From Hyphomonadaceae bacterium (GTDB lineage: Bacteria; Pseudomonadota; Alphaproteobacteria; Caulobacterales; Hyphomonadaceae), in the NCBI GenBank assembly GCA_030158285.1, contig JAOATF010000173.1:3251-37114 (forward strand): 33,864 bases of DNA, given 5' to 3'. Both the position numbers and the translations under genes were made by a program. The notes below the pieces were generated by a model, which saw only the letters and a program-made list of their open reading frames with translations, was not told the DNA's origin and ran no database searches. Of this stretch, positions 1 to 23,762 are shown piece after piece; positions within the stretch are counted from its first letter, which is position 1; the number at the start of each line of letters is the position of its first letter.

Positions 1-3000
1 GTCGAGGACAGGATGGCGAAATCATCGAGCGTGAGCGCGCTGACCTGCTCTGCCGTGAGGCCGCTGACCAGCGTGGAGGAGAGCGCGCCGATCTGGGTCG
101 CCGTGAAGCTGTCGACCTGCGTGGTGGTGAGGGCGGACATCCAGGTGGAGCCGAAGCCGGCGCCGGACAGTTGCGTGGTGGTCAGGAGGCCGAGATTGGT
201 GAGCGACAGCGCGGCGATGGCGGTGGACGACAGGGCGGAGAGACGCGTGGCGCCCAGCGAGGTGAACTGGCTGGTCGACAGCTGGGCGGCCTGATCGGCG
301 GAGAGGCCGCTGACCGCCGTCGACGAGAGCGCGCCGAAATTGGTGGTGCTGAGCGCCGCGATCGTGGTGGGCGACATGGCCTGCACCTGCGTTTCGGCGA
401 GGCCGGACATCTGCGTGGTGGTGAAGCCGTTGAAGGTGGAGGCCGGGAAGGCGCCCATCTGCGTGGTGCTGAGCGCGCCGATCTGCGTCGAGGTCAGGCT
501 GGCGAACTGCGTGGCGGTGAGCTTGCCGATCTCGGCGGCGGTGAGGCCCTGCACTGTCGTGGTGGAGATTGCGCCGATCTGCGTGGTGAACATCACCTGC
601 AGCTGTGTCGTGGTGAAGGCGGCGATGTCTTCGGCTTCGAGGCCGCTGACGGCGCTGGACGAGAGGCCGCGCAGTTGCGTGGTGGTGAGGCTGGCGACGT
701 TGGTGACGGTGAGCGCGGCGATCTGCGACGAGGTGAGGCCCGCGGCCTGGGTGACGGTGAGCGCGGCGAGGCGGGCGCCGGTCATCGCTTCAAGCGCTGT
801 TGTATTGATCGCACCAACCTGTGTGGCCGTGAAGGCGATGGTCTGCGTGGTTTCGAGGCCGCCGATCTGGTCGTAGGTGAGACCGGAGACGCCGCCGGCG
901 GAGAGCGAGGCGATGTTCGTGGTCGACAGCATGGCGATGCGGTTGACGTCGAGCGCCGAGACTTGCGTGGCTGTCAGGCCGGAGACGCCGCCGGCGGAGA
1001 GCGCCGCGAACTGCGTGGTGGAGAGAGCCTGCATCTCCGTCACGGTGAGCGCGCCGATCTGCGAGGACGTGAGGCTCTTCAGCTGCGTCGTCGTGAAGCT
1101 GCCGATCACGGTGGGGCCGAGCGCGGAGAGCGCGGCGGGGGCGAGGCGCGCGAGCTGGGCGCCGGTGAAGCCGGAAATCTGCGTGGCGGTGAAGGCGCTC
1201 GACTGGTCGGTCGAGAGCGCGGCGAATTGCGCCGCCGTTAGGCCGCTGATCTGCGTGGTGGTGAGCTGGGCGATGTTCGTGGTGGTTAGGCCGGTGACGG
1301 CGGTGGTGGTGAGCGCGCCGATGTGGGTGGACTGAAGTGCGGACAGCTGTTCGGTGGAGAGCGCTGCGACCTGCGTGGAGGTGACGCCCGGCGACTGCGT
1401 GGTGGTGAGGCTGGCGAGTTGCGTGGTGGTGAGGCTGGGGACCTGCGTCCCCGTGAGGCCGCTGATCTGCGTGGCGGTGAAGCCCGACAGTTGCGTGGTG
1501 GTGAAGGCGGCGATGTCTTCCAGCTCGAAGCCGCCGATGGCGGCGCTGGAGAGGCCGGACAGTTGCGTCGCGGACATGACGCTGATCTGGCCGGGCGACA
1601 GGATGGAGACCTGCGTTGAAGAGAGCGCGCCGACCTGGTTGGACGACAGGGCTTCGACCTGCGCCATCGTCATCACGCCGATCTGGTCGGCGGAGAGGAT
1701 GGCCATGGCGGCGTTGGAGAAGCCTTTGACTTGAGTGGTCGTGAGGTCGGCGACCTGGAAGATGGTGAGGGCCTGGACCTGCGTGGTGGTGAGGCCCGCG
1801 ATGGCGCCGGCGCTGAGGGATTCGAACTGGGACGGGCTGAGCGAGGCGATCTGCGTGGAGGTGAGGCCGGCCGCCTGCGTGCCGACGAGGCCGCCGATCT
1901 GGGTCGCGGTCATCGCCTCGAGCTGGTCGAGGCTGAGGTGGGCGATGGCGGTGGTGCTGAAGCCGCGCAGCTGGGTGGTGGAGAGCGCACCGATGTGCGT
2001 GGTGGAGATGGCGGCCATCTGGCTGTCGCTGAAGGCGCGCAGCTGGACGTAGGTGATGCCGCTCCATTGCGTGGATGTGAGGGCGGCGATCTCGGCGGGC
2101 TCGAAGCCGCCGATGGCGGTGGAGCTGAGCTGCGAGAGATGCGTCGAGGTCAGGCTGGCCAGCTGGTCATTCGACAGGATGGCGATGTCGTCGGCGCCGA
2201 GCCCCCTCGCCTGCATGGCGGAGAGCGAGGCGATCTGCGTGGTGGTGAAGGCGGAGACCTGTTCTGCCGTCAGGCTGGCGATGGCGGTGGAGGTGAAGCC
2301 GCGGATCTGCGTGGTGGTGAGCGCGGGGATCTGGTCGTCGGTCAGCGCGCCGAGATGGACAGTTCCGAAGACGCCGAGCTGGGTGGAGGTGAGCGCCGCG
2401 AACTGCGTCGGGCTGAGGCTGGCGACCTGCGATGAGGTGAGGCCGGCGACTTGCGTGGTGGAGAGGCCGACGACTTGCGAGGTAGTGAAGCCGGCGACCT
2501 GCGTGGTCGAGAACTGGGCGATGTCGGCGGCGGTGAAGCCGAGCACCTGCGTTGTGGTGAGGCCTGCGATCTGCCCGCTGGTGAGGGCGGAAAGCTGGCT
2601 GGCGGTCAGCGCATCGAGCTGGGTTCCGAGGAAGCCGGAGAGCTGGCCGGCGGAGAAACCAGAAATGTCCTGCGTCTCGAATCCGGCGATGGCGGTGGTG
2701 GTGAGACGCGAGAGCTGCGTCGAGGTGAGGCTCGCGACCTGTGTGTCGCTGAGCTGGGTGATTTGCGTTGGTGTCAGGCCACGGATCTGGGTGGAGGTCA
2801 TCGCCGACAGCTGCGTGCCGGTGACGGCGCCGAGCTGGTCGGCGGTGAGGCCGGAGACGCTGGCGGCGGAAAGGCTGACGATCTGGGTGGTGGTGAGCGC
2901 GCCCATCTGCGATTGCGTGAGGGCTGCGATCTGCGTCGCGTTGAAGGCGGCGAGCGCGGAGCCTGACAGGGCGGCCAGCTGCTGCGAGGACAGGCCAGCG

Positions 3001-4763
3001 ACTTGCGTCGTGGTGAGGCCTTTCACCTGGACCTGCGTGAAGGCGCCGACCTGCTCCGCCGAGAGTGTGCCGGCTTGCTGAGCCGAGAGCGCGGCGACGG
3101 CGCCGGCATTGAGCGCGCCGATCTGCGTCAGGGACAGGTTGGCGATCTGTGCAGTGGAGAGCGCGTCGATCTGCGTGGCGGTGAAGCCGGAGATGCCGGA
3201 TTCCGACAGCGACGACATCTGCGTCTGCGAGAACGCGCCGAGCTGGTCTGCGGTGAACGCGGCGGTCTGGGCGGGGGCGAGCGCGTAGATTTGCGTGGTG
3301 GCGAGGCGCGCGAGTTGCGTGGCGGTGATCGCGCCGACCTGCAGCTTGGAGAGGCCTTTGACTTGCGTGGTCGCGATCGCGCCGAGCTGGTCGGTTGTCA
3401 GGGCATTGAGCTGGTCGCCGGTCAGCGCGCCGACGGTCGCAGGCAACAAGCCGGTGATCTGCGGCACGCTGAGCGAGGCGATCTGGGCGGTCGACATGGC
3501 GGCGAGCTGCTTGCCGGACAGCGAGCCGATGCCGGCGACGGAGATCGCGCCGAGCTGGGCGGCGGTGAAGGCCGCGACCTGCGTGTTGGACAGGGCCTTG
3601 AGCTGCGTGAGCGTGAAGCCGGCCGCCTGCGTGGCGGCGAGCGAGCCGACCTGGTCGCCCGAGAGCAGGCGAAGCTGGGCGATGCCGAGCGAGCCGACCT
3701 GCCCGGCCGACAGCGCGCCGAGCTGGTCGTTCGAGAAGGACGCAAGCTGCAACGGCGTGACGGCGGCGAGCTGGCTGGCGTTGAGCGCGCGGACCTGCGT
3801 GGTGGTGATCGCTGCGGCCTGCGTCGTGGTGAAAGCGGCGATGTGGGCGCCGGTGAGGCCCTTGACCTGCGCGGCCGTGAGCAACGGGATCTGGTCGACG
3901 CCGAGCGCTGCGATCTGTGTCGCGGCGAAGGCGGCGAGCTGCGTCGAAGCGAGGGCTGCGAGCGTGGTGGTGTTCAGCGAGGCGACCTGCGTGCTGGTCA
4001 TGCCCCTGATCTGGGCGGCCTGGAAGCTGGCGATCTTCTGGACCGAGAGGGCGCCCCATTGTTCGTCGCTGAGCGCGGCGATGGCCGTGCTGGCGAAGCC
4101 GCGCATCTGCGACACGCTCATCGCGCCAATCTGCGTGGAGGTGAGTGCGCGGACCTGCGTCAGGCTGAGCGAGGTGAGCGTGGCCGGGGTGAGGCCGGAG
4201 ACCTGGGTTGTCGAGAGGCCGGCGACCTGCGTGGCGGACAGCGCGCGGATCTGCGCGACGACGAGGCCGCCGAGTTGCGATCCTGACAGCGCGCCGAGCT
4301 GCGTGGAGGTGAGCGCTGTCATGTCGGCGGCGGTGAAGCCGCGAAGCTGTGCGGTGTTCAGTGCACCGATCTGCGTTGCGGTGAGGACTGAGAGCTGGCT
4401 GGCTTCGAGCGCGGTGATGGCCTGCGCCGAGACGCCGCGCATCTGGCTGGCGGTGAGGACGGCGATGTCTTCGGGATCAAGCGAGGCGAACTGCTGCGCG
4501 CTGAGGGCGAGGAGCTGGGCCGAGTTGAAGGACATCTGGCTCGGCGAGAGCGCAGTGATCTGCGCGCGCGTGAGGGCGGCGACCTGCTTGGTGGAAAGTT
4601 GCGCGACCTGGGTCGAGGAGAAATCGGAAATGCCGGTGGTGGTGAAGGCCGCGACCTGCGTGTTGGACAGGGACGCGATGTCGGCGCGGGTGAGCGATTG
4701 AATCGTCTCCCGCGACAGACCCGCGATCTGCGCAACGCTGTAGGAGGCGATAAATGAGACCAT
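1..4763 (-). CDS. giant octapeptide-repeat protein, 5' part (C-terminus beyond window)
   Basis: Reading the minus strand from ATG at 4763 gives an open frame to the left edge (about 1587 codons, no stop seen). After a start of about ten residues (MVSFIASYS) the protein is an almost pure 8-residue repeat, consensus (V/I/L/M)-x-(A/G)-L-(S/T)-x-(S/T/A)-Q, with D or E sometimes at the last position; typical units are VAGLSTTQ and IAALTSTQ. No signal peptide or other domain is visible at the N-terminus, and the repeat is still running at base 1. An in-frame stop at 4866-4868 bounds the start upstream; ATG 4763 is preferred, with TTG 4811 and GTG 4835 as alternatives and only a weak GGAAGAG upstream. 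The S/T-x-x-Q/D/E element resembles a helix-capping box, so a solenoid of very short helices is possible, but a beta-solenoid adhesin is equally open. Function unknown; I would guess a surface or structural protein. Confidence 0.85.
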   Translation of the reverse strand, partial: MVSFIASYSVAQIAGLSRETIQSLTRADIASLSNTQVAAFTTTGISDFSSTQVAQLSTKQVAALTRAQITALSPSQMSFNSAQLLALSAQQFASLDPEDIAVLTASQMRGVSAQAITALEASQLSVLTATQIGALNTAQLRGFTAADMTALTSTQLGALSGSQLGGLVVAQIRALSATQVAGLSTTQVSGLTPATLTSLSLTQVRALTSTQIGAMSVSQMRGFASTAIAALSDEQWGALSVQKIASFQAAQIRGMTSTQVASLNTTTLAALASTQLAAFAATQIAALGVDQIPLLTAAQVKGLTGAHIAAFTTTQAAAITTTQVRALNASQLAAVTPLQLASFSNDQLGALSAGQVGSLGIAQLRLLSGDQVGSLAATQAAGFTLTQLKALSNTQVAAFTAAQLGAISVAGIGSLSGKQLAAMSTAQIASLSVPQITGLLPATVGALTGDQLNALTTDQLGAIATTQVKGLSKLQVGAITATQLARLATTQIYALAPAQTAAFTADQLGAFSQTQMSSLSESGISGFTATQIDALSTAQIANLSLTQIGALNAGAVAALSAQQAGTLSAEQVGAFTQVQVKGLTTTQVAGLSSQQLAALSGSALAAFNATQIAALTQSQMGALTTTQIVSLSAASVSGLTADQLGAVTGTQLSAMTSTQIRGLTPTQITQLSDTQVASLTSTQLSRLTTTAIAGFETQDISGFSAGQLSGFLGTQLDALTASQLSALTSGQIAGLTTTQVLGFTAADIAQFSTTQVAGFTTSQVVGLSTTQVAGLTSSQVASLSPTQFAALTSTQLGVFGTVHLGALTDDQIPALTTTQIRGFTSTAIASLTAEQVSAFTTTQIASLSAMQARGLGADDIAILSNDQLASLTSTHLSQLSSTAIGGFEPAEIAALTSTQWSGITYVQLRAFSDSQMAAISTTHIGALSTTQLRGFSTTAIAHLSLDQLEAMTATQIGGLVGTQAAGLTSTQIASLSPSQFESLSAGAIAGLTTTQVQALTIFQVADLTTTQVKGFSNAAMAILSADQIGVMTMAQVEALSSNQVGALSSTQVSILSPGQISVMSATQLSGLSSAAIGGFELEDIAAFTTTQLSGFTATQISGLTGTQVPSLTTTQLASLTTTQSPGVTSTQVAALSTEQLSALQSTHIGALTTTAVTGLTTTNIAQLTTTQISGLTAAQFAALSTDQSSAFTATQISGFTGAQLARLAPAALSALGPTVIGSFTTTQLKSLTSSQIGALTVTEMQALSTTQFAALSAGGVSGLTATQVSALDVNRIAMLSTTNIASLSAGGVSGLTYDQIGGLETTQTIAFTATQVGAINTTALEAMTGARLAALTVTQAAGLTSSQIAALTVTNVASLTTTQLRGLSSSAVSGLEAEDIAAFTTTQLQVMFTTQIGAISTTTVQGLTAAEIGKLTATQFASLTSTQIGALSTTQMGAFPASTFNGFTTTQMSGLAETQVQAMSPTTIAALSTTNFGALSSTAVSGLSADQAAQLSTSQFTSLGATRLSALSSTAIAALSLTNLGLLTTTQLSGAGFGSTWMSALTTTQVDSFTATQIGALSSTLVSGLTAEQVSALTLDDFAILSS
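171..4514 (-). repeat. 24-bp tandem repeat array, about 181 units in unbroken register
   Basis: The codon for the conserved Gln (CTG or TTG on the plus strand) falls at positions that are 3 modulo 24 at every anchor checked (171, 675, 1395, 2235, 2979, 3315, 3987, 4347, 4515), so 4344 bp equals exactly 181 units. The register shifts only at a 10-residue unit (141-170) and a 7-residue unit (4515-4535). Copies differ at many bases but keep the amino-acid pattern, which points to selection on the protein rather than recent duplication. A distinctive GFE-x-x-DI unit recurs at 624, 1512, 2088 and 2664, i.e. at spacings of 37, 24 and 24 units. Anchors were checked, not every unit. Confidence 0.88.
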
Positions 4764-5186
4764 CCCGGCCGTCTGCTCTTCCGCTACTGGCCGACCATCG
4801 TCGCACCACAACTGAGCCCGCCTGCGCGCGCCCACGCGAGACAGAGCAACATCCAGGCCAGAGCGTTAACCAACTCTGGCGACGTAAAATCAATGACTTA
4901 GCTGAAGGTTTCAGGAAGCGGGCCCGGCAGAATTTACCGGCCCGGCAGGTCGTGACCGGGCGCAGATGGCCGCTGCGGAAGGTCGGTTCGCGCGTGGCGG
5001 CGATCTGAGAGACCTCTCATCTGGACGCGGCGGCGTGGCTTTCGCCGCATCACCCGGCACCCGCGCACGGCTTTCGATCATGTTGCGGCGCCGCGCATTT
5101 TTGCGGCGGGCGCGCGAACCAATTCGCTTGCAAACAAAAGTGAGCGATGACTAGCTTTCAGCGAGTAGATGGACAGGAGAGTCATC
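4764..5186. promoter_or_regulatory. divergent intergenic region between repeat gene and TonB receptor
   Basis: About 420 bp with no convincing gene. It must hold the promoters of both flanking, divergently transcribed genes. Visible structure is limited to a 7-bp inverted repeat GCCAGAG/CTCTGGC (4857-4863 with 4874-4880) on the repeat-gene side and a short direct repeat GGCCCGGCAG at about 4921-4948. No promoter boxes could be assigned with confidence. Confidence 0.5.
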
Positions 5187-7463
5187 ATGCGCGCCTTCCG
5201 GACGGTGTTCCTTTCATGCACGGCGCTGACCGTTGCGAGCTTCCCGGCATTTGCACAGCCTACGGACGATGCGGCGCGCGATGTCATCATCATCACCGCG
5301 AACAAGCGGGCGGAGAACATCCAGGAAGTGCCCGTGGCGGTGACCGCGATCGGCGGCGAGGCGCTGCAGGATCTCGGCGTGACGGACGTGCTGGACCTCA
5401 ACGCCCTCGCCCCCAGCCTTCAAGTGAAGACGGACGACAATGCGGCGAACCCCAAGGTGTTCATCCGCGGGATCGGCCTCAACGACTTCAACCCGAACAC
5501 GGCGGGCGCGGTCGCGATCTATACCGATGGCGTCTATATCGGTTCTCCCCTCGCCCAGATGGGGCAGTTCTTCGACCTTGAGCGCGTCGAGGTTCTGCGC
5601 GGGCCGCAGGGCACGCTGTACGGACGCAACACCACGGGTGGCGCGATCAACGTGATCAGCCGCAAGCCGAGCGATGAGTTCGAGGCGAACGCCTATGTGG
5701 AATACGGCAGCTTCAACAGCATTACGACGGAAGCCGGCGTCGGCGGGCCGATTGCGCCGGGGGTGCTGAACTATCGCCTTGCCGGAACCTACGTCGCCAA
5801 TGACGGCTATACGCTGAACCGGCTGACGGGAAATCGCGGCAACAACTCAGATCGCGCCAGCGCGCGCCTGACGTTCGAATGGACGCCGTCGGAAAATCTC
5901 GAAGGCCTGTTCCAGCTGCGTTATGGCCGCTCGAAGGGTGGATCGATCCTCGCTTACAACCGCTCGCTGCTGCCGCAGACAGCGCAGGCGACGGGGCCGG
6001 ACGGGTTCTGCGCGCCGGCGTTCTACACGTCGGGCCAATGCACCGATCTCGCGGGTTATGCCAACACGAGCGACAATCTCTATCAGGGCGATTACCACCT
6101 TGAAGGCAAGGACAATGTCGAGACGTACGGCGCATCGGCGACACTGACGTGGGATCTGGGCGGCATGTCGCTGGTTTCCGTCACCGGCTATGACCATGCC
6201 GATCGCGACGATGTGGAAGAGACAGATGCGGGCCCGACCGACATCGTGACCGCGCGTTATCGCGCCAAGCAGTGGGCAGCGAGCCAGGAGCTGCGCCTGC
6301 AGTCGAACGGCGACAACCAGCTTGACTGGGTGGCGGGCGTCTATCTGGCGAAGGACGATCTCAGCACCAATTCCTATCTCGATGTGTTCCGCGTTGCGAA
6401 CTCCGGCGATCCGGGGACGGACCTGCCGCAGGGCATCGGCGTGTTCCACTGGCCGTTCACGCAGGAGACGGACAGCTATGCGGTGTTCGGCCAGGTCGAT
6501 TACGACATCACGGATCGCCTGACGGCGACGGTGGGCCTGCGCTATTCGGCGGACAAGAAGGCGTTCGACTATCAGGGGCTCTATTCGAGCGATCCGGATG
6601 GTCCGCGCATTCCGATTCCGTACGATGATGGCGTGAACCCGCCGACGGTCGTGGGCCTCAACGCCAGCCGCACCTTTGACTCCCTGTCGGGCCGGCTGGG
6701 CCTGAAATACCAGATCAACGACGACATGAACGCCTATGCGACGTACAATCGCGGGTACAAGAGCGGCGGCTTCTTTGGCGGGCAGACGACGGACAACACG
6801 GCGCTTGCCCCGTACAATGACGAGATCGTCGACGCTTACGAGGCGGGCCTGAAATCGGAATGGATGAATGGCCTGATCACGGCGAACTTCGCGGCGTTCT
6901 TCTACGACTACCAGGACCTGCAGGTTTACACGCTGATTGTGGACCCCAACACCAACCTGACGGTGCAGAACTTCACCAACGCGTCGAACGCCGAGGTGTC
7001 TGGTCTTGAGGCGGAGTTCACAGCCTCGCCGATGGACGGGCTCGATCTGTCGCTGAGCGCGTCGCTCCTCGATGCGAAATACAAGAACTTCCAGTCTGTC
7101 GGCGACGATTATTCGGGCAACACCCTGCCCAACGCGCCGGAGACCAGCGTCAACGCATCGGCGCGGTACACGTGGGCGCTGTTCGGGGGCGACGCCTCGG
7201 CGCAGGGCGATGTGGCCTATCGCACCAAAGTCTATTACGACACACGGAATGTAGAGCGGCTTTCCGATGGCGACCGCACCTTCGTGAACCTGCGCTTTGG
7301 CTGGAAGCCGTCGTCTGGCAACTGGGAGTTCGGCGTGTTCGGACGCAACATCTTCGACGAAACCAATATCAGCGACATCATCCCGATCGAGGGGCTGGGC
7401 TTCGACCTGTTCAGCATGGGCGCGCGGCCGACCTACGGCGCCTTCCTCCGTTGGGACTACTGA
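5187..7463 (+). CDS. TonB-dependent outer-membrane receptor (cassette 1)
   Basis: A 758-aa TonB-dependent receptor for energised uptake of an unknown ligand across the outer membrane. It has an N-terminal Sec signal peptide ending near AFAQ, a TonB-box-like DVIIITA just after it, and a plug domain with the typical VFIRGIG, DGVYIGSP and ERVEVLRGPQGTLYGRNTTGG motifs. A long beta-barrel follows, ending in the aromatic C-terminus FLRWDY used for outer-membrane insertion. Start chosen at ATG 5187 because AGGAG (5175-5179) lies 7 bp upstream; the in-frame ATG at 5169 has no ribosome-binding site. It is followed after 5 bp by an MFS permease, so it probably leads the operon running to 11705. The ligand cannot be read from the sequence. 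It belongs to a different receptor subtype from the one at 20865. Confidence 0.95.
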   Translation: MRAFRTVFLSCTALTVASFPAFAQPTDDAARDVIIITANKRAENIQEVPVAVTAIGGEALQDLGVTDVLDLNALAPSLQVKTDDNAANPKVFIRGIGLNDFNPNTAGAVAIYTDGVYIGSPLAQMGQFFDLERVEVLRGPQGTLYGRNTTGGAINVISRKPSDEFEANAYVEYGSFNSITTEAGVGGPIAPGVLNYRLAGTYVANDGYTLNRLTGNRGNNSDRASARLTFEWTPSENLEGLFQLRYGRSKGGSILAYNRSLLPQTAQATGPDGFCAPAFYTSGQCTDLAGYANTSDNLYQGDYHLEGKDNVETYGASATLTWDLGGMSLVSVTGYDHADRDDVEETDAGPTDIVTARYRAKQWAASQELRLQSNGDNQLDWVAGVYLAKDDLSTNSYLDVFRVANSGDPGTDLPQGIGVFHWPFTQETDSYAVFGQVDYDITDRLTATVGLRYSADKKAFDYQGLYSSDPDGPRIPIPYDDGVNPPTVVGLNASRTFDSLSGRLGLKYQINDDMNAYATYNRGYKSGGFFGGQTTDNTALAPYNDEIVDAYEAGLKSEWMNGLITANFAAFFYDYQDLQVYTLIVDPNTNLTVQNFTNASNAEVSGLEAEFTASPMDGLDLSLSASLLDAKYKNFQSVGDDYSGNTLPNAPETSVNASARYTWALFGGDASAQGDVAYRTKVYYDTRNVERLSDGDRTFVNLRFGWKPSSGNWEFGVFGRNIFDETNISDIIPIEGLGFDLFSMGARPTYGAFLRWDY

Positions 7464-20864: not shown

Positions 20865-23762
20865 ATGGCTCAATCGAGCAACAAGAAAGCGTGGCTTCGC
20901 CTCGGGACCGGCGTGTCACTGTTCACGATGTCCTCCGCTCTTGGCCTCGCCGCACCGGCGCTGGCCCAGACGCAGCCGGCGCCGCCGGCAGCCGACACGG
21001 AGAGCGTCATCGTCGTCACCGGCTTCCGCGAAAGCCTTGCCGCCGCCATCGAGGTGAAGCGCGAGGAGAATGGCATTGTCGATGTCATCACCGCAGAAGA
21101 CATTGCCGACTTCCCCGACCTCAACCTCGCCGAATCCCTGCAGCGTGTGCCGGGCGTACAGATCGACCGGGATGGCGGCGAAGGCCGCACGATCAACGTG
21201 CGCGGCCTGTCGTCCGATTTCGTGCGCGTGCGTCTCAACGGTCTCGAAGCGCTGGCCACCACGGGCGGACGCGACGGACGCCAGAACCGCAACCGCGCCT
21301 TCGACTTCAACGTGTTCGCCTCCGAACTGTTCAACTCGATCAAGGTGTCGAAGTCGCAGTCGGCGGAAACCGAAGAGGGATCGCTGGGCGCCACGGTGGA
21401 CCTGACCACGGCGCGGCCGTTCGACTATGACGGCTTCACCTTCGCGGCCGGCGCGCAGGCCTCCTACAACGATCTCGCGGGCAATACCGATCCGCGTTAC
21501 ACCATGCTGGTTTCGGACCGCTTCCTCGATGGCCAACTCGGCGTGCTGTTCTCGCTGGCCTACTCCACGCGTAACACGGTGGAAGAAGGCTCCAGCTCGG
21601 GCCGCTTCCGCATTCCCAGCGTGGATGGCTGCGCGGCGACCCCGCCCATCAGCGGCACGGTCGCAGGCGCCAACCGCTGTTACCAGACCATTCAGGGCCC
21701 GATCACGACGCCATCGGGCGTTCTCACGGGCGCAGCCGCCGCGACGGCCGCGAACAGCGCCGCCCACCCGCGCATCCCGCGCTATGGCCGCATCAGCTAT
21801 GACCGCGAACGCCTGGGATCGACGCTCTCCGTGCAGTACCAGCCGTTCGAATCGACCACATTCGGCTATGACCTGCTCTATGCCGATCTGAAAGAGCAGC
21901 GCCAGGAAGAGTTCCTCGAGGCGATCAGCTTCGCGCGTGAGACCAACGCCTCCGGCCTGCGTTCGACAGATCTGCTCGCAGGCACGATCGATGCCTCCAA
22001 CACGCTGGTGGCCGGAACGTTCAACGATGTCGACGTTCGACTGGAACAGCGCCGGGATAACCTGGAAACCGAATTCTTCCAGAACGTCTTCCGTGTCGAT
22101 CATGACTTCTTCGACGGTCTGAAGGGCGAGTTCGTGGCGGGCCACACGCGCGCCGTACAGTACAACCCCAACCAGACGACGCTGTCGTTCGAGCGCTATG
22201 ACGTGGACGGGTATTCGTATGACTATTCGAACCCCAACCTGCCAGCCTTCAACTACGGCTTCGACGTCACCAATCCAAACAGCTACGTGTTCTCGTCTGC
22301 AGCGACGTCGGGCGATGCGTCGCTGATCCGGTTGCGGCCGAACAAGGCGGTGAACACTTTCCTGTCGTTCGACGGGCGCCTGATCTACGAGCTGGACGAT
22401 GTGTGGACGCTGAAGGGCGGCGCCTCTCGCAAGCAGTTCGAGTTCACAGGCACGGAATCGCGCCGCGCGACGGAGGCGCTGCCCGCCAGCGTGCTGACGG
22501 CGCTGGCCAGCGGCGGCTATGGCATCGCCGACTACTCCTCCCTGCTGACGGGCTTCGGCAAGAATCTCAACCTGCCGGCCGGAACGGCGACAAGCTGGGT
22601 TGTTCCCTCGATCAACAAGCTCAACAAGCTGATCGATTTCGAGTGTGACTGCGTCAACGCGTTCGGCGATTTCCGCACGGACGCCGTGAACAGCCTCGGC
22701 GAGAACCGCTCGGCCACCGAGACATCGACCGGGTTCTGGGCGCAGGCCGATTTCGACTTCGAACTTGGCGCGATGCCGGTGCGCGGCAACTTTGGCGTGC
22801 GCTATGTCGAGACTGACCTCAAAGCGACGGGCTATACCAACCAGGGCACAGGTTCGCTGCCGCTGACGGTCAGCAACAAGTACAATAACACGCTGCCGTC
22901 GGCGAACATCACGATCGAGCCGGTCAGCGACTTCCTGGTGCGCTTTGCGGCCGCCAAGACGATCGCGCGGCCGAGCCTGCCGGCGCTGACGCCGGGGGGC
23001 ACACTCGACGCCAACCCGCCGGGCTTCTCGATCAACGCGGGCAACCCGTTCCTCGCGCCGATCGAGTCGACCAATTATGACGTGTCGTTCGAATGGTATC
23101 CGTATGACGAGGCGCTGTTCGCCGTGGCCTTCTTCCAGAAGGACATCGGCACGTTCGTGCAGCGCCTGCGCCAGCTGATCCCGTACAGCCAGACCGGCTT
23201 CCCGGACTCACTGCTGCCGCCGGGCGTGGCCAACACCGAGCTGTTCGACACCAACACCTTCCTCAACACGCCGGGCGGAAATCTCGAGGGCTTCGAGGTG
23301 ACGGCGCAGACACCGTTCACCTTCCTGCCGGGACCGTTTGACAAGTTCGGTGGCCAGCTGAGCTACACCAAGATCGAGAGCGATGTGTCCTACGTGCTTG
23401 CCGCCACCATCGGCGCGGGCTTCGTGAATGCGCCGCTGACCGGCCAGTCGCCGGAGTCGACCAGCGCCACGCTGTACTATGATGACGGTCCGTTCCAGGC
23501 GCGCATCTCGGCAGTGTCGCGTGCCGCGTATCTGACGCTGGTGCCTGCCGCGAATGGCAATGATTTCGAGGGCAAGGCCGATGTGCTGAACGTCGACTTC
23601 TCGGCGTCTTACGAGATCAACGACAACTTCACCGTGTCGTTCGAGGCGATCAACCTCACCGACCAGTTCGACGAGCGCTGGATCTCCTCGGCGCGGCGCA
23701 ACAACCTGAACTACGAACACACCGGCCGCGAATTCGTGATCGGCGGGCGGTACAAGTTCTAG
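20865..23762 (+). CDS. TonB-dependent receptor, Caulobacter/Xanthomonas type (pectin locus)
   Basis: A 965-aa outer-membrane receptor. The signal peptide ends at APALAQ; the TonB box region reads DTESVIVVTGFRESLAAAIEVKR, typical of the large proteobacterial carbohydrate-type TonB receptors. The plug carries DIADFPDLNLAESLQRVPGVQ, the GRTINVRGLSSDFVRVRLNG segment and EEGSLGATVDLTTARPFDY. The barrel ends with HTGREFVIGGRYKF and a terminal aromatic. Start at ATG 20865 with GGGAG (20853-20857) 7 bp upstream. Two predicted operators precede it and a strong terminator follows, so it is monocistronic. Divergence from the TRAP operon and the shared operators suggest uptake of pectic oligosaccharides; the ligand is inferred, not seen. 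Confidence 0.95.
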   Translation: MAQSSNKKAWLRLGTGVSLFTMSSALGLAAPALAQTQPAPPAADTESVIVVTGFRESLAAAIEVKREENGIVDVITAEDIADFPDLNLAESLQRVPGVQIDRDGGEGRTINVRGLSSDFVRVRLNGLEALATTGGRDGRQNRNRAFDFNVFASELFNSIKVSKSQSAETEEGSLGATVDLTTARPFDYDGFTFAAGAQASYNDLAGNTDPRYTMLVSDRFLDGQLGVLFSLAYSTRNTVEEGSSSGRFRIPSVDGCAATPPISGTVAGANRCYQTIQGPITTPSGVLTGAAAATAANSAAHPRIPRYGRISYDRERLGSTLSVQYQPFESTTFGYDLLYADLKEQRQEEFLEAISFARETNASGLRSTDLLAGTIDASNTLVAGTFNDVDVRLEQRRDNLETEFFQNVFRVDHDFFDGLKGEFVAGHTRAVQYNPNQTTLSFERYDVDGYSYDYSNPNLPAFNYGFDVTNPNSYVFSSAATSGDASLIRLRPNKAVNTFLSFDGRLIYELDDVWTLKGGASRKQFEFTGTESRRATEALPASVLTALASGGYGIADYSSLLTGFGKNLNLPAGTATSWVVPSINKLNKLIDFECDCVNAFGDFRTDAVNSLGENRSATETSTGFWAQADFDFELGAMPVRGNFGVRYVETDLKATGYTNQGTGSLPLTVSNKYNNTLPSANITIEPVSDFLVRFAAAKTIARPSLPALTPGGTLDANPPGFSINAGNPFLAPIESTNYDVSFEWYPYDEALFAVAFFQKDIGTFVQRLRQLIPYSQTGFPDSLLPPGVANTELFDTNTFLNTPGGNLEGFEVTAQTPFTFLPGPFDKFGGQLSYTKIESDVSYVLAATIGAGFVNAPLTGQSPESTSATLYYDDGPFQARISAVSRAAYLTLVPAANGNDFEGKADVLNVDFSASYEINDNFTVSFEAINLTDQFDERWISSARRNNLNYEHTGREFVIGGRYKF

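Follow-up and report, generated by a model that had tools for sequence, protein, structure and literature searches.

The long octapeptide-repeat protein encoded at the left edge of the window (the whole 33,864-nucleotide stretch of Hyphomonadaceae DNA that was analysed) is probably a rigid, screw-shaped rod of fixed length. Its role is most likely structural or adhesive outside the cell, and it is probably exported; a second type of the protein, type B (the window gene is type A), is probably glycosylated. Three features of the family are new: the number of repeat units is frozen between species, the side chains vary along the array with a coherent period of about 3.43 units, and type B genes adjoin a GT41 O-glycosyltransferase-like gene.

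An uninterrupted reading frame runs on the minus strand from position 4835 to position 3 of the window and is open at the left edge. The likely start is the ATG at 4763-4761 (MVSFIASY...), which is kept in orthologues. The frame has no natural end at the left edge, where a run of 100 N marks an assembly gap; the contig ends that flank this run overlap (Table 1). Joining over the 55-bp overlap yields a 1782-aa protein with a normal stop; since two orthologues that were assembled without a gap (L035 and L037) are also 1782 aa long, the join is independently supported. The gap is an artefact that splits the gene, which automated annotation will probably report in two pieces. On the plus strand, long open frames of up to 468 aa lie opposite the array (positions 171-4701); these are a by-product of GC-rich codons and are not genes.

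The complete protein consists of about 221 eight-residue units with the consensus V/I/L-A/G/S-A/G-L/F-T/S-x-T-Q; the last position is Q in 69% of units and the fourth is L in 66%. Repeats continue almost to the stop codon (the protein ends ...QIAGFTTTQIAGMTQDQQDALVRAVS). Residue identity at a lag of eight is 0.308, against a mean of 0.107 (maximum 0.131) in 1000 shuffles of the protein. Placement of a fitted unit profile on the window protein by dynamic programming gives 196 whole octads from residue 5, with 193 of 195 spacings exactly eight. The irregularity at residue 69 occurs at the same place in type A and, as 14 residues, in type B; the 15-residue spacing is also present in other families. 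Most units (217 of 221) are distinct, and DNA identity between units averages 0.53. No stop codon or frameshift is found within the array in the window. The earlier note, which was made from the sequence alone, had described a near-perfect octad register with two irregular places, diverged copies, a protein larger than 1587 aa and no visible signal peptide or other domain. All of these observations hold, no such peptide or domain having been seen; the gene is intact, which answers the question of a decayed pseudogene.

Table 1. Coordinates of the repeat gene and its features (window positions unless a locus is named)
Feature	Position	Strand	Basis
Type A ALTTAQ-repeat gene, residues 1-1587 of 1782 aa	1..4763	-	ORF, translation, Pfam PF20080, orthologue lengths
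N-terminal ~165 residues, probable cap region	4269..4763	-	identity 0.67 vs 0.46-0.56 mid-array
Irregular spacing, residues 69-83 ITALSPSQMSFNSAQ, 15 instead of 16	4515..4559	-	conserved
Irregular spacing, residues 1524-1533, 10 instead of 8	165..194	-	common to 5/5 type A orthologues
55-bp contig-end overlap, assembly artefact	1..55	.	identical copy across 100-N gap, L009:3096-3250
Last 195 residues of window protein	L009:2510-3150, same contig, left of window		continuation to stop

The window protein matches the Pfam repeat PF20080 (ALTTAQ_rpt) over 62 stretches with 579 bits (E=8.3e-179); the curated gathering cut-off is 26.4 bits. It had been put forward as an undescribed family, which it is not, though it is functionally undescribed: the Pfam entry gives a repeat name with no function attached. 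A search of NCBIfam with the window protein returned no family, and a literature search found no paper naming ALTTAQ, PF20080, HeliScrew or 9zem. Weak Pfam matches to CAAP1, SAM_3 and Phage_TAC_7 were rejected as compositional.

Matches to PF20080 occur in 10 of the 61 close relatives searched, in 35 of the 348 genomes from the order and in 6 of the 385 from the class; of 14 control genomes, Caulobacter vibrioides alone has it, and this genome also carries GT41. Further members occur in relatives with Niveispirillum and AAP38 records, in Rhodocyclales, in Rubrivivax and in others; a single Azospirillales-type protein was the query for the wider genome search. Type A proteins start MVSFIASY and end like QDALVRAVS, and type B proteins start MSIS.LSVAQI and end like QLEAYLLGL; the home genome carries both, with type B on contig C37. 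A Rhizobiales member (L087:7019-12172) has a regular extra five residues about every 13 units. Elsewhere, a short ALTTAQ array lies within a protein with bacterial cadherin-like domains (L071:7568-10990), and one type B gene (genome G582, L120:7026-13855) contains near-identical 1485-bp internal duplications and is split into two frames, by either a frameshift or an assembly error.

Tandem repeats often gain and lose units. The five type A orthologues are 1778-1782 aa long at 43-64% identity, and no unit is gained or lost in their alignments; because three small indels (3, 3 and 1 residues) are present, length is nearly, not perfectly, fixed. Type B orthologues from seven species of the genus are 1721-1722 aa long at 67-90% identity, with no internal indel. 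Seven type B proteins from g296, a genus in a different family, share a length of 2104 aa and align at 58-76% identity with zero gaps; the exception is one g296 genome with a 1720-aa protein. Species whose proteins differ at a quarter to two fifths of their residues have exactly equal numbers of units, in arrays of 214-262 units. The neighbouring GT41 enzyme of the same genomes (identity 0.85 and 0.78) provides an internal control: for every 1000 aligned residues it has 0.43 and 1.59 gap events, while the type B repeats have 0.00 despite their lower identity. These alignments indicate that copy number is frozen between species. Freezing is not universal; there are recent internal duplications in other members.

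Values of dN/dS are 0.21-0.41 in type A and 0.10-0.31 in type B, indicating purifying selection on both types. The ends of type A are better conserved (identity 0.67 and 0.68) than its middle (0.46-0.56), as would be expected of caps.

The side chains of successive units vary periodically. Units were ordered by index and simple residue properties were transformed, with five orthologues averaged for type A. Acidic residues in type A peak at 3.419 units (power 19.5) and glycine at the third unit position (index 2) peaks at 3.426 units (power 20.9); in type B, acidic residues peak at 3.428 units (power 47.9), and none of 500 shuffles reaches any of these three peaks. Q at the last unit position of type B peaks at 3.418 units (power 33.5). 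Acid peaks in other, distant members from alpha- and betaproteobacteria lie at 3.439, 3.441, 3.418, 3.443, 3.409 and 3.382 units, two of these members being betaproteobacterial; the exceptions are two Azospirillales-type members and a Phaeospirillum member, with a period of 2 units, and a Rhizobiales member at 3.26. Phase is nearly constant and drifts slowly over the array. In type B, acidic residues number 1.20 per unit on one face and about 0.02 on the face opposite; the corresponding values for type A are about 0.6 and 0.10. At the level of sequence, the period of about 3.43 units gives an acidic stripe along the array. With eight residues per unit, 3.42-3.43 units correspond to 27.4 residues.

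The lengths of long tandem duplications inside other members give the same value. Duplications of 576, 744 and 330 bp equal 7.00, 9.04 and 4.01 turns, and those of 327, 1488 and 1551 bp equal 3.97, 18.08 and 18.85 turns, the last being the worst fit. The 330- and 327-bp duplications (the latter in the Rhizobiales member L087) fit whole turns though they are not octad multiples. When 20-40 residues per turn are scanned, the duplication lags alone prefer 27.40 residues, matching the side-chain period; a V-test on eight lags, one per gene or group and chosen by the analyst, gives p = 1e-4. A possible confounder is that the period is a relic of old 24-unit duplications. This was rejected because other harmonics of 24 would be expected, and the significant type A and B peaks cluster at the seventh; in addition, long internal duplications are absent from the genes of both types. 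The side-chain period probably corresponds to one turn of a screw.

At each of the 23 Caulobacterales loci examined, type B has a GT41 gene as its neighbour. In the genus, a TPR-GT41 gene (PF13844) lies beside type B in each of the seven genomes having type B; at 16 further type B loci GT41 is directly downstream, and at L112 it lies 1.3 kb away. The home genome has a single GT41 gene, next to its type B paralogue on C37. Among the 61 relatives, GT41 is found in the seven type B genomes, as a fragment in G011 and in the more distant G053; in G261 it has a giant repeat gene on either side. Three other arrays, L111, L117 and L119, lack the type B start and have no adjacent GT41; GT41 is also absent beside the window gene, and it was not found in the two type A-only genomes, G003 and G006, which are both drafts. 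Thr occupies the seventh unit position (index 6) in 78% of units where arrays are GT41-linked and in 49% where they are not (Mann-Whitney p 4e-6, a significance that relatedness inflates). Gene order across these loci links type B to GT41; the adjacent enzyme probably decorates type B with sugar, and the pairing suggests a rod of constant length on the cell surface. In three genomes (L010, L032, L038) the type B-GT41 pair has a glycosyltransferase gene and Wzm/Wzt-like genes for an O-antigen-type ABC exporter nearby, in L010 at 119-3892.

For type A, it is the relatives that point to export. Four Azospirillales-type loci (L072, L077, L080, L081) have two GT41 genes, an HlyD gene and a C39-like ABC transporter gene of a type I secretion system (T1SS) beside the repeat gene, an arrangement that resembles a complete locus for glycosylation plus export. 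The window gene has no neighbour for either secretion or glycosylation. The earlier note had suggested looking to the left for type I secretion genes; none is there, and an acyl-CoA dehydrogenase gene lies beyond the gap. HlyB- and HlyD-like matches in the home genome are distant only (26% and 22%) and are adjacent on C130. At the C-terminus of types A and B neither a calcium-binding nor an anchor domain is found, and RTX or any other calcium-binding C-terminal domain is absent from the window protein, in which repeats fill almost all of this end.

A rather unlikely reading is an intracellular scaffold, in which a cytoplasmic solenoid rod binds a partner along its acidic stripe, like a very long ARM/TPR superhelix, and the GT41 beside type B is a regulatory OGT. 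It is favoured by the fact that neither a signal peptide nor a C-terminal export domain is seen and that type A has no export gene nearby; TPR GT41 enzymes, moreover, are cytoplasmic. Cysteine is extremely scarce (11 in 70,971 residues), which argues against a scaffold, as do the T1SS genes beside relatives and the array inside a cadherin-type protein. Nor was any conserved neighbour, and so no candidate partner gene, found for type A; of the nearby genes, those for a porin and a chemotaxis receptor are shared by no more than two genomes. An exported rod is preferred.

The predicted fold is a solenoid of very short helices. AlphaFold2 models of residues 1-400 (pLDDT 93.4; alignment of 16 relatives) and 388-1587 (pLDDT 84.0) have one helix of 4-6 residues per octad, almost without interruption, and no strands. 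This agrees with the first of two folds suggested earlier. AlphaFold2 can over-predict regular solenoids for repeats, and the pTM of the long model is low (0.39). Foldseek (PDB to April 2026) finds no close structural relative. The best match is mesothelin (E=4e-5, TM-score 0.25), an ARM-like superhelix of short helices with a different repeat and no homology shown; viral matches, with TM-scores below 0.3, were rejected. Among PDB sequences, HeliScrew4 (9zem, 120 aa; phmmer 1.1e-13, family profile 1.4e-28) alone gives a strong match; it is not among the Foldseek matches listed. Its octad pattern (VAALTPEQ...) is like that of the window protein; unlike the latter, it is short, P-E-Q-rich and, to judge from its name only, probably designed. 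Leucine-rich repeat matches in the PDB were rejected as chance, since 24-residue LRR units equal three octads and only the leucine spacing is shared.

Four further readings are all very improbable. Ice-binding or ice-nucleating proteins order water on a Thr-array surface through T-x-T spacing, and length sets activity. The T-x-T in many units, the constrained giant length and the uniform arrays would fit such a role; it is very improbable, because the protein is predicted to be all-helical with Thr at helix starts and no flat beta face, and face charge varies with the screw period, leaving no single uniform Thr face. Nucleic-acid binding like that of TAL effectors, in which LTPEQV-like short helices recur, is more doubtful still. 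HeliScrew4 does match PDB TAL repeats through the short motif LTPEQ; the TAL repeat has 33-35 residues with a variable di-residue and the window repeat has eight, and the net charge is -29 (type A) or -54 (type B), with an acidic stripe. The beta-solenoid, the second fold suggested earlier, is just as doubtful: short regular repeats with V/I and L would suit it, but both models are strand-free and the related solved sequence is named HeliScrew4. A functionless array, whether neutral, decaying or selfish like a microsatellite, would account for repetitive sequence with diverged copies but is hardly credible given dN/dS of 0.1-0.4, no unit gain or loss within frozen groups and units that align position by position between species.

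In the preferred reading, a rod exported for use outside the cell, each unit (V/I-A-A-L-T-x-T-Q) would be one short helix. Ser/Thr is predicted to cap the helix start and to pair with Gln/Asp/Glu three residues on, with V/I/L and L/F packed inside. One screw turn would take about 3.43 units (27.4 residues), giving the window protein some 64-65 turns and, at a typical ~1 nm per turn, a length of roughly 60 nm. The faces would differ in side chains, with the acidic stripe running the whole length. Loss or addition of one unit would rotate all that follows by about 105 degrees, break the stripe and change the length, and this may be why copy number is frozen. The rod would be exported whole, probably by type I secretion; in type B, the adjacent GT41 TPR enzyme would probably add sugar to exposed Thr before export. 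We infer a role of this kind for the rod generally, the function of type A included.

More tentatively, the family may represent a new class of surface ruler: an alpha-helical screw with one ultra-short helix per octad and about 64-100 turns, in which selection fixes both length and face pattern, which changes mostly by whole turns and of which one branch is decorated by a dedicated GT41. Both the side-chain periodicity and the duplication lengths allow the predicted screw turn to be read from sequence alone. The idea of a molecular ruler or a surface rod of fixed length becomes directly testable, a bacterial GT41 enzyme gains a probable substrate, and the HeliScrew fold gains a natural counterpart.

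Several known systems resemble the family in part. Like giant type I secreted adhesins with repeat stalks, the window protein is a giant, Cys-free and acidic repeat protein, and some relatives adjoin T1SS genes or sit in a cadherin-type protein; it differs in having no calcium-binding repeats, RTX C-terminus or T1SS neighbour. HMW1 is a secreted adhesin with its own GT41-type glycosyltransferase (HMW1C), two-partner-secreted and modified on Asn (PMC3012730, PMC3983070). Type B is likewise a giant repeat gene beside a GT41 gene; it differs in being Thr-rich and in having no two-partner secretion partner among the neighbour families found, and the window type A lacks GT41. FlmG, the flagellin O-glycosyltransferase of Caulobacter, is soluble and modifies an exported filament protein before its export (PMC7591256); FlmG acts on flagellins, whereas the putative substrate of the GT41 described here is a repeat protein.

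The remainder of the window (5169-33302) is ordinary metabolism. It includes genes for two TonB-dependent receptors (5169-7463 and 20865-23762), a TRAP transporter (DctM, DctP), KduI and a short-chain dehydrogenase, together with D-arabinono-lactone oxidase and D-serine dehydratase-like genes.
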